From: Oenococcus kitaharae
GTDB taxonomy: Bacteria > Bacillota > Bacilli > Lactobacillales > Lactobacillaceae
Direction of reading: 5' to 3'
Length of the DNA: 64,000 nt
Assembly: GCF_025758695.1 (NCBI RefSeq)
Contig: NZ_JANJQP010000001.1
Coordinates: 372,001-436,000, forward strand
Made by a program: the position numbers and the translations under genes. Numbering within the stretch: position 1 is the stretch's first letter; the number at the start of each line of letters is the position of its first letter. This document shows positions 30,461 to 33,162 of the stretch, piece after piece. The notes under the pieces are model-generated. The model saw only the letters and a program-made list of their open reading frames with translations, had not been told where the DNA came from and did no database searches.

Positions 30461-30488
30461 AAAAAAACACGTCGTTGTTCTCGACGTG
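30461..30488 (-). terminator. terminator or attenuator between guaB and purA
   Basis: A 7-bp perfect stem CACGTCG / CGACGTG (30468-30474 and 30482-30488) is followed by seven T residues on the minus strand, only 26 bases before purA. Confidence 0.85.
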
Positions 30489-30520: not shown

Positions 30521-31669
30521 TCAAATCCGGACGTAATTTGGGGCAGCTTTTGTAATATGGACATCGTGCGGGTGAGATTCGATCAAACCAGCATTTGTAA
30601 TCTGGACAAATTCAGCTTTTTCGATCAGATCTTTGATGTCGGCAGAACCTGTGTAACCCATGCCGGCACGGATGCCGCCAAGGTCTTCAAAGATCACGTC
30701 GTCGACAGTGCCTTTATATGCAGTCACGGCTTCGATACCTTCAGGAACCAGTTTGTTGACCTCTTTGACTTCGCCTTGGAAGTAACGGTCTTTAGAACCA
30801 TTCTGCATAGCTGCCATGGATCCCATGCCGCGGTAAGTTTTGTATTGTTTGCCATCTTCGCCTGTGATCACTTCACCAGGTGCTTCTTTGGTGCCGGCCA
30901 ACATCGAGCCCAGCATGACAGCATTGCCACCGGCAGCAATCGCTTTGACAATATCGCCGGACCACTTCATACCGCCATCAGCGATGATTGTCTTGCCATA
31001 ATCAGCTGCAGCTTGGGCAGCATCGGTAATGGCTGTAATTTGCGGAACGCCAACACCGGCAACAACACGCGTCGTGCAGATCGAACCAGGACCGATACCG
31101 ACTTTGGCAACATCAGCACCGGCATCGAATAAGGCTTTGGCACCAGATTCAGTGGCGATGTTGCCGCCAATAATATTCAAGGTTGGATAAGCGCTGCGGA
31201 TGTCACGGATTTTTCTTAAAACACCAGCCGAATGACCGTGAGCTGAATCAACGACGATGGCGTTTGCACCAGCTGAGACTAAAGCGGTGACGCGGTCTAA
31301 GGTATCGTTTGTCACACCAACACCAGCCGCAACAATCAGCTGGCCCTTTGAATCAATAGCAGCATTGGGATACTTGTTTAAATCAACTGCCGTGGCCTTG
31401 ACTTTGGCGACTTCAGCAGCTTGATCTGCGATCAGCATGTTCTTGTGAATCACGCCCATGCCGCCATTTAAAGCCAATTGCGCGGCCATGGCGTGTTCTG
31501 TGACTGTATCCATAGCTGCGCTTAGAATCGGGATATTCAAGTGCAGAGTCGGTGTCAGGTCAGTACCCAGTTTGACTTGGTCAGGTGTCACATCTGAAGC
31601 GGCCGGGATCAGCAGAACATCGTCAAAAGTCAATCCGAGTTTCTTATATTTGTTTGAAAAATCTGTCAT
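30521..31669 (-). CDS. guaB: IMP dehydrogenase lacking CBS domains
   Basis: 382 residues. Oxidises IMP to XMP with NAD, the first step of the GMP branch. The barrel is complete: [10 protein letters not shown] at the start, DSAHGH, the catalytic loop GPGSICTTR with Cys198, [20 protein letters not shown] and the EG/YKG flap. The usual tandem CBS (Bateman) module of about 110-120 residues, normally inserted after about residue 90, is replaced by some 20 residues, so allosteric control by purine nucleotides through CBS domains is absent. Expression is instead under a guanine-type riboswitch. GAGGAT precedes the ATG. Confidence 0.95.
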
Positions 31670-31690
31670 ATTATCCTCACGTTTATATAC

Positions 31691-31734
31691 AAAAAGGCAT
31701 TCGCAGAAAGCTTCAAGAAGTCCCTGCGGATGCC
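31691..31734 (-). terminator. riboswitch-controlled terminator before guaB
   Basis: On the minus strand GGCAT-C-CGCAG pairs with CTGCG-A-ATGCC (31734-31724 with 31706-31696), followed by TTTTT. The 5' arm (31732-31724) can alternatively pair with CTGTGGATG (31754-31746), which shares bases with riboswitch stem P1. Confidence 0.85.
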
Positions 31735-31751
31735 AAAAAGAGCTACATCCA

Positions 31752-31811
31752 CAGATAGTCCAGCATAGGTGCTGGGTAGAAACTGTCAGCCATTATCCGA
31801 CGATATACCTG
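31752..31811 (-). promoter_or_regulatory. guanine-type purine riboswitch aptamer
   Basis: Read on the minus strand: P1 CAGGTA / TATCTG, P2 GTCGG / CTGAC closing loop ATAATGG, J2/3 AGTTTCTACC and, after P3, GGACTAT. Consensus elements of the purine riboswitch are the TTTCTACC junction and an L2 ending in TGG. The C in GACTAT occupies the discriminating position (C74), giving guanine or hypoxanthine rather than adenine. P3 (CCAGC / GCTGG) carries a loop of only about 6 bases instead of the usual 7-base kissing loop. With the downstream antiterminator and terminator it should switch guaB off when guanine is abundant. Confidence 0.85.
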
Positions 31812-31825
31812 CTTGATTGTTATTT

Positions 31826-31853
31826 ATCTTACCAAAGATCAGTAAAAAAGCAA
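31826..31853 (-). promoter_or_regulatory. promoter candidate for guaB leader
   Basis: Minus-strand TTGCTT (31853-31848), a 16-base spacer and TAAGAT (31831-31826), placing the start about 10 bases before riboswitch P1. Confidence 0.5.
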
Positions 31854-31881
31854 CAGCTAAATTGGCCGAGAATGCCAAATC

Positions 31882-33162
31882 TTAATGCTGCCGTGAAAAA
31901 TTTTTCTGGAAATCGGCCAATTGATAACCGATATCATGACGATAAGTCAGTTTTAAATGTGCCTGATCTAAATATTTATAAATTTTTTCTTGTGCCGCCA
32001 GCATTGTCGCAGCGTGCACCACGATCGTCGCCACACGTCCGCCAGTCGATAGGAATTGCTGGTCGGATTTGCGAACAGTTGCATAATCAATCTCAAAACC
32101 ATCCGGCAAGTCTGCTAACAATGGCGTTGGAAAGCCCGGCTGAACATCTTCAGGATAACCCGGAGCCGCGATATCAACGCCCAAATACACGTCTTGATCT
32201 TGCCAAGCTGCCTGAGCCGTTTTGCCAGCAAGCAGATCTGAGATCAATTCGTAAAAATCCGAGGTCAGCTGAGGCAGAATCACCTGTGTCTCTGGATCGC
32301 CAAAACGCACATTGAATTCGACGACTTTAACACCAGTCTGCGTCAACATCAAGCCGGAATACAAGACCCCGACAAAAGGCGTCTGATTAGTGGCCATGGC
32401 GCGGATTGTCGGCAGAATAATTTTGTCTGTCGTATCCTGTAAAACGTCTTCCGGCAGCTGCAGCATCGGGCTGTAGGCACCCATTCCGCCAGTATTAGGC
32501 CCTTTGTCCGCGTCAAAACGGCGTTTGTGATCCTGAGCCGCTGGCAAGTTAACGATTTGTCCATGACTGCCGACTAAGGTAAACATGGAAAACTCTATCC
32601 CAGACATGAAGTCTTCGATTAACAGGCTTTCGGCAGGATTTTTGCTGTAGATGTCAGTGAGTTTTGCAGCAGCTTCTTGACGCGTTTTGATAATTGAAAC
32701 ACCCTTGCCGGCCGCTAAACCGTCTAGCTTAAAGACAAGCGGCAGCTGTTTGCCAGCCACGATTTTTTCAGCAGTATCCAAGGAATTGACTGTCTCATAA
32801 GCTGCCGTCGGTGCCTGGGCTAATTGCAGGATTTTTTTTGCGAATGTCTTGGATCCTTCTAATTGAGCAGCCGCTTTATTTGGCCCGAAAATGCGTAGGC
32901 CGGCTTGTTGAAAAGCATCAACGACGCCCAAAACCAGCGGCTCTTCACTGCCCACAAAAGTTAAGTCGATCTGTTCTTTTTTCGCCAGAGCGACCAAACC
33001 AGGCAAATCATCCAGGGCCACGGACGCAGTCTGGATGCCAGGCTGAATCATGCCGTCATTGCCAGGTGCAACAATCACAGTGTCGACATGTTTGCTTGTC
33101 AGAAATATTTTGGCTAGGCTATGCTCGCGAGCACCTGCGCCAATGATTAATACTTTAGCCAT
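31882..33162 (-). CDS. purD: phosphoribosylamine-glycine ligase
   Basis: 426 residues. ATP-grasp enzyme joining phosphoribosylamine and glycine to GAR. The N-terminal VLIIGAGAREHSLA, the ATP-binding FKLDGLAAGKGVSI near residue 143, DHKRRFDADKGPNTGGMGAYSP and EFNVRFGDPETQ near 277 are diagnostic. AGGAGG precedes the ATG. It is last in the IMP-synthesis operon, and the guaB leader begins within about 60 bases of its stop; only a weak TTGGC / GCCAA hairpin lies between. Confidence 0.96.
   Translation of the reverse strand: MAKVLIIGAGAREHSLAKIFLTSKHVDTVIVAPGNDGMIQPGIQTASVALDDLPGLVALAKKEQIDLTFVGSEEPLVLGVVDAFQQAGLRIFGPNKAAAQLEGSKTFAKKILQLAQAPTAAYETVNSLDTAEKIVAGKQLPLVFKLDGLAAGKGVSIIKTRQEAAAKLTDIYSKNPAESLLIEDFMSGIEFSMFTLVGSHGQIVNLPAAQDHKRRFDADKGPNTGGMGAYSPMLQLPEDVLQDTTDKIILPTIRAMATNQTPFVGVLYSGLMLTQTGVKVVEFNVRFGDPETQVILPQLTSDFYELISDLLAGKTAQAAWQDQDVYLGVDIAAPGYPEDVQPGFPTPLLADLPDGFEIDYATVRKSDQQFLSTGGRVATIVVHAATMLAAQEKIYKYLDQAHLKLTYRHDIGYQLADFQKNFSRQH

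Follow-up and report, generated by a model that had tools for sequence, protein, structure and literature searches.

A predicted guanine-I riboswitch with a shortened L3 loop precedes guaB in Oenococcus kitaharae

Results

A purine riboswitch lies between purD and guaB

We analysed a 64,000-nt window of the Oenococcus kitaharae genome, and all coordinates below are positions in this window. The intergenic region between purD (31882-33162) and guaB (30521-31669) contains a match to the Rfam family RF00167 (Purine) at 31830-31736 on the minus strand, the strand that also carries guaB. The match scored 48.0 bits in cmscan (gathering cut-off 37), with an E-value of 5.5e-5 when the 64-kb window was searched with all of Rfam and 3.5e-7 when RF00167 alone was searched against the whole genome. 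It is the sole RNA family match above cut-off within the window. The whole genome contains two RF00167 elements, one before guaB and one before xpt, the latter with the higher score of 64.2 bits. A sequence-only reading of this stretch had proposed a guanine-type riboswitch before guaB and had asked for a covariance search with the Rfam purine model, which this match now provides. The parts that it had listed, namely P1, P2 with the loop AUAAUGG, J2/3 UUUCUACC, GACUAU, CUGUGGAUG and a T-tailed hairpin, are all present on the minus strand. The features of the locus are as follows.

31848-31853, minus strand: putative -35 element TTGCTT of the guaB promoter (sequence reading, consensus match only)
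31826-31831, minus strand: putative -10 element TAAGAT with TGG before it, extended -10 type (inferred)
31736-31830, minus strand: purine riboswitch aptamer and flanks (RF00167 match)
31806-31812, minus strand: P1 5' strand GCAGGUA (fold and pair count)
31785-31801, minus strand: P2-L2 hairpin, GUCGG/CUGAC (fold and pair count)
31790-31796, minus strand: L2 AUAAUGG, with G37 and G38 at the kissing-pair positions and A, not the usual U, at nucleotide 34
31776-31783, minus strand: J2/3 core GUUUCUAC, U51 at 31778 (sequence and Rfam alignment)
31760-31775, minus strand: P3-L3 hairpin CCAGCA-CCUA-UGCUGG (one compensatory G-C to A-U change in the genus)
31766-31769, minus strand: L3 CCUA of 4 nt (usually 7), with C60 and C61 retained
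31758, minus strand: C74 in the GACUAU motif, A73 and C74 coming after P3 (sequence and Rfam alignment)
31751-31757, minus strand: P1 3' strand UAUCUGU (fold and pair count)
31746-31754, minus strand: antiterminator 5' strand CUGUGGAUG, overlapping the P1 3' strand (9 bp with 31724-31732)
31724-31734, minus strand: terminator 5' arm GGCAUCCGCAG, common to the antiterminator
31696-31706, minus strand: terminator 3' arm CUGCGAAUGCC
31691-31695, minus strand: terminator U-tract UUUUU (sequence)
31675-31678, minus strand: Shine-Dalgarno-like GAGG, then the start codon (sequence)
30521-31669, minus strand: guaB, IMP dehydrogenase, 382 aa (TIGR01302, E-value 2.8e-133, below its cut-off)

The putative -35 and -10 elements are separated by 16 nt. 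The -35 counterpart in O. oeni is TTGCAT, with similar sequences in the aligned upstream regions of genus members, and each of the five guaB leaders of the genus keeps the putative -10 element, in the form TGGTAAGAT or TGGTAAGGT. A consensus promoter scan did not include the proposed guaB promoter among its listed promoters. A hairpin with a T6 run follows purD (31844-31893, minus strand); its T-run overlaps the proposed -35 element, and it folds well in this and the nearest genome only.

The ligand pocket appears complete. The junction nucleotides U22, U47, U51, A52 and C74 are present (GUUUCUACC plus GACUAU, from sequence reading and the Rfam alignment). C74 pairs with the ligand and marks guanine specificity in the purine riboswitch class. 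Read from its sequence, the guaB switch is guanine-I by every pocket criterion tested. RF00167 membership also agrees with the gene context, as the purine gene guaB lies downstream with an expression platform in which terminator and antiterminator are conserved. This platform would respond to the ligand.

The expression platform is laid out as an OFF switch and is conserved in the genus

As the sequence-only reading had suggested, CUGUGGAUG can pair with the 5' arm of the T-tailed terminator. Its partner there is CAUCCGCAG, which makes up the inner part of the arm, and all 9 bp of this helix form in each of the four distinct leaders of the genus. When the antiterminator register is shifted by 1 to 3 columns, pairing falls from 100% to 19-56%. 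The terminator alone folds at -19.2 kcal/mol in the O. kitaharae leader (ViennaRNA) and at -19 to -21 kcal/mol across leaders. Over the whole leader, aptamer plus terminator reaches -37.7 kcal/mol versus -26.7 kcal/mol for P2/P3 plus antiterminator, and the antiterminator is the fold of transcripts ending before the terminator 3' arm. The minimum free energy structure of the full leader departs from the textbook OFF state and shows a mixed fold; a cotranscriptional switch could behave in this way, but the fold is no evidence for one.

From its sequence, the leader has the layout of a textbook guanine OFF switch acting via transcription termination. When guanine (or hypoxanthine) is scarce, CUGUGGAUG would pair with the terminator 5' arm and the polymerase would read into guaB. 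Guanine bound between C74, U51 and U22 would hold P1 closed, which would free the terminator 5' arm for the 3' arm, and transcription would then stop at the U-tract. This OFF logic, also put forward in the sequence-only reading, is supported by sequence and comparison, because P1 and the antiterminator compete for one strand and the terminator 5' arm is shared.

Five genomes of the genus carry the same leader at the same place before guaB, and the leader of the nearest genome is identical. In an alignment of the four distinct guaB leaders of Oenococcus, the cells of P1, P2 and P3 are 100% paired, as are those of the antiterminator, and the terminator is 97.7% paired. Register sliding lowers pairing of the aptamer and terminator helices to 29-51%. 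The only two-sided compensatory helix change within the genus is the G-C to A-U change of one P3 pair, while antiterminator pair 66-88 is G-C, G-U or A-U depending on the species. With four sequences, pairing in this alignment did not exceed column shuffles, so that the co-variation seen within Oenococcus is weak support when taken alone; the case for these pairings comes from the register control and the covariance model.

The riboswitch seems to act on little beyond guaB. A strong hairpin with a T7 run (CACGTCG-AGAACAA-CGACGTG-TTTTTTT, about 30461-30488, minus strand) lies between guaB and purA. This suggests that the riboswitch governs mainly guaB, with guaB transcribed alone or purA separately controlled, and it weakens the case for a guaB-purA-purB-hpt-guaA operon under one riboswitch. 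The GuaB protein matched only the IMPDH domain (Pfam PF00478), with no hit to CBS domains. CBS domains serve nucleotide control in other IMP dehydrogenases, and since GuaB has no CBS hit, transcript control may carry more of its feedback.

The L3 loop has four nucleotides

Among the five genomes of the genus, O. kitaharae and the genome nearest to it have CCUA as the guaB L3, and three have CCAA; the L3 of the O. kitaharae xpt riboswitch has the normal 7 nt, CCGCAAA. The guaB loop is closed by an A59-U67 pair. Oenococcus, Leuconostoc and Weissella have A-U at position 59-67, and the Clostridial leaders L063, L083 and L088 have G-C, a replacement which indicates that these positions form a pair and do not belong to the loop. 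The sequence-only reading had noticed a shortened L3 of about 6 nt. The shortening stands, and alignment of leaders from related genomes, as proposed there, found it conserved in five of five guaB leaders; the length was overcounted by two, as the flanking A and U are the closing pair. We therefore rejected a 6-nt L3.

The short form also turns up outside Oenococcus. In 395 Lactobacillales genomes, exact-pattern matches were dominated by a spacing of 17 between ACC and GACTAT, and a paired P3 with spacing 14 occurred only in the O. kitaharae genome, although the exact pattern misses diverged members. A scan of one genome per species with the pattern GTTTCTACC-N5-CC-N7-GACTAT returned 29 hits. 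Ten of these outside Oenococcus form a 5-bp P3 with a 4-nt L3 and belong to Leuconostoc lactis, two Weissella species and seven Clostridial records; nine scored above the Rfam cut-off and L063 below it. Downstream of these ten are genes for an AzgA-like permease (labelled from our reading of the protein, with no NCBIfam hit), the xanthine permease PbuX, a xanthine phosphoribosyltransferase and an FAD-dependent protein. The phylum sample held no further paired CC-type 4-nt L3 besides that of O. kitaharae. Viral contigs with short spacing were discarded as chance matches, as none combined a CC-type paired P3-L3 with an upstream purine-type J1/2-P2.

Other forms were also observed. A metagenome-assembled genome of the same genus has a riboswitch with a 6-nt L3 (CCAAAA) and L2 UUAAUGG before an AzgA-like permease (L036), a third loop form within the genus. 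Six leaders (L065, L066, L074, L087, L089 and L090) make up a separate Clostridial group with P3-L3 GCACGCCAAGUUGC, L2 of the type AUAAAAUGG and a shortened L3 that keeps CC; both members that were scanned lie above the Rfam cut-off. Five Clostridial guanine-type riboswitches with a 4-nt L3 (L063, L080, L083, L084 and L088) precede the gene for the FAD-dependent protein. Their P3-L3 can base-pair with the sequence that immediately precedes the U-run (AACUGCCCUCAG with UUGAGGGCAGUU in L063), so that the terminator would overlap P3, and these leaders are predicted from sequence to be guanine ON switches.

The loop-loop contact is probably reduced, and L2 co-varies with L3

The B. subtilis xpt aptamer joins L2 and L3 through two base quadruples, G37-C61 with U34-A65 and G38-C60 with A33-A66 (PMC5480868). 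In the guaB aptamer, as in other short-L3 sequences, the last two L2 nucleotides are GG and the first two of L3 are CC, and the kissing pairs G37-C61 and G38-C60 appear to be kept. The A33-A66 and U34-A65 halves of the quadruples are absent, as L2 has U33 and A34 and L3 keeps two nucleotides after CC. These halves are a common trait of the standard form and lie outside the ligand pocket that defines the class. The presence of GG and CC is partly by construction, since the loop parser demanded the former and the genome scan the latter; Lactobacillaceae short forms found by the covariance model also keep both.

We compared distinct L2/P3-L3 combinations from fetched loci, counting a P3-L3 span of 17-19 as standard and one of 14-16 as shortened. 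Of 49 standard aptamers, 45 have U at nucleotide 34; none of the 25 shortened ones does, and 24 of these have A. The association between U34 and L3 length gives a Fisher p of about 7e-16 with relatedness ignored, and the loci had been chosen partly by length, not by nucleotide 34. Sorted by gene, the sample has ten guaB-linked entries, every one of them shortened, and 22 xpt-linked entries, of which 21 are standard. These sequences are most simply read as retaining both Watson-Crick kissing pairs and losing the upper quadruple as a unit. The suggestion of the sequence-only reading that the L2-L3 contact may be altered thus holds in part: the A-rich half of L3 and U34 are lost together, but both G-C kissing pairs appear to be kept.

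The loop-loop lock of the guaB switch is probably the reduced type known from 2'-dG-I riboswitches. The M. florum I-A loops, which we take to be very similar to AUAAUGG/CCUA, serve as a lead only. The 2'-dG-I riboswitch of Mesoplasma florum (RF01510) likewise has an L3 of 4 nt and retains two G-C pairs between L2 and L3 (PMC8872408), and in 2'-dG-I an L3 adenine stacks into L2 in a key-and-lock motif (PMC11251524). Mutants of the xpt kissing loops lose ligand binding or become Mg2+ dependent (PMC5480868), and for guanine riboswitches whose loops resemble those of 2'-dG-I, guanine binding is reported to be more than 50-fold weaker (PMC8872408). Because of the latter, normal guanine affinity cannot be assumed for the guaB switch, whose affinity or Mg2+ dependence may differ from that of the standard xpt switch of the same genome.

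Both of these loop effects would also fit a degenerate relic, weakly functional or constitutive, in which loss of the A-rich half of L3 impaired folding and made the response useless. We consider this quite improbable, given that the aptamer core, both kissing G-C pairs, the antiterminator and the terminator are conserved across the genus. Moreover, U34 and L3 length change in coordination in several lineages, which is unexpected of a relic.

The loops also raise the question of whether the RNA binds 2'-deoxyguanosine (or guanosine) instead of guanine, since the 4-nt L3 and the two G-C kissing pairs are those of 2'-dG-I (PMC8872408). Here the pocket speaks against it: 2'-dG-I has C at the U51 position and C31 at the U22 position, and a C at position 51 is required to recognise 2'-dG (C58 or C51, depending on the class; PMC8872408), whereas the guaB switch keeps U51 and U22, with A52 and C74 as in guanine aptamers. 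Regulation of guaB also fits guanine. A search of the genome with RF01510 (cut-off 51 bits) did not report the guaB site at E-values up to 10 and reported the xpt riboswitch instead, below cut-off; in 399 genomes of the class there was no RF01510 member above cut-off. We therefore rejected membership in 2'-dG-I and regard binding of 2'-deoxyguanosine as very improbable. A variant with changed selectivity, like guanine-II or xanthine-II, is an extremely improbable reading: these are variants of the guanine aptamer scaffold, and the guaB switch is itself a variant guanine riboswitch in Firmicutes, but those classes differ in the joining regions and pocket through J2/3 and J3/1 insertions and, in xanthine-II, also U51G (PMC9295807), whereas the guaB switch differs only in its distal loops, with no insertions in the joining regions and U51 unchanged.

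The guanine-I riboswitches of the B. subtilis xpt type (RF00167) are the closest match. They share with the guaB switch the three-way junction, the J1/2, J2/3 and J3/1 core, C74, the two G-C kissing pairs and the P1/antiterminator/terminator OFF logic. They differ in L3 (CCGUAAA, 7 nt, versus CCUA, 4 nt) and in L2, where nucleotides 34 and 33 are U and A in the xpt type and A and U in the guaB switch. P2 of the guaB switch is one pair shorter, with U24, as in many standard-L3 relatives. The guaB riboswitches of other Lactobacillaceae genera (for example L042, L044, L058 and L060) share the gene, the CC/GG kissing pairs and an A34-type L2 (theirs AAAAUGG), but have an L3 of about 6 nt (CCAAAA), an internal mismatch in P3 and, mostly, a retained A33.

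Discussion

The guaB leader RNA of O. kitaharae is very probably of the common guanine-I kind, an OFF switch that would act by premature transcription termination before guaB. As judged from sequence and comparison, it is a real and mostly ordinary guanine OFF switch that carries a conserved, co-evolved loop variant. A limited literature search found no paper describing short-L3 guanine riboswitches or L2/L3 co-variation, and short-L3 members could already be included in the published consensus models of purine riboswitches.

We tentatively propose, as a possibility that we hold with rather low confidence, that guanine riboswitches use two co-evolved locks, one with a 7-nt L3 and U34 and one, like that of 2'-dG-I, with a 4 to 6-nt L3 and A34. 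In Lactobacillaceae the reduced lock would then mark the guaB lineage and tune the guanine threshold or Mg2+ dependence of that lineage separately from those of the xpt switch in the same cell. A guanine pocket with such a lock may resemble the ancestor of 2'-dG-I.

The purine riboswitch is a standard model for how distant loop-loop contacts aid ligand binding, and it is mostly the form with a 7-nt L3 that has been studied. Since L2 and L3 co-vary, the loop replacement seems to come as a matched set, and in the guaB switch the reduced lock known from 2'-dG-I is seated on an unaltered guanine pocket. Given the much weaker guanine binding reported for guanine riboswitches with 2'-dG-I-like loops (PMC8872408), a natural guanine switch with short loops is worth measuring. 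The presence of a natural reduced-lock guanine aptamer and a standard one in one genome offers a ready comparison of affinity, kinetics and Mg2+ need. The guaB/xpt pair could thus show whether cells set different guanine thresholds for biosynthesis and salvage.
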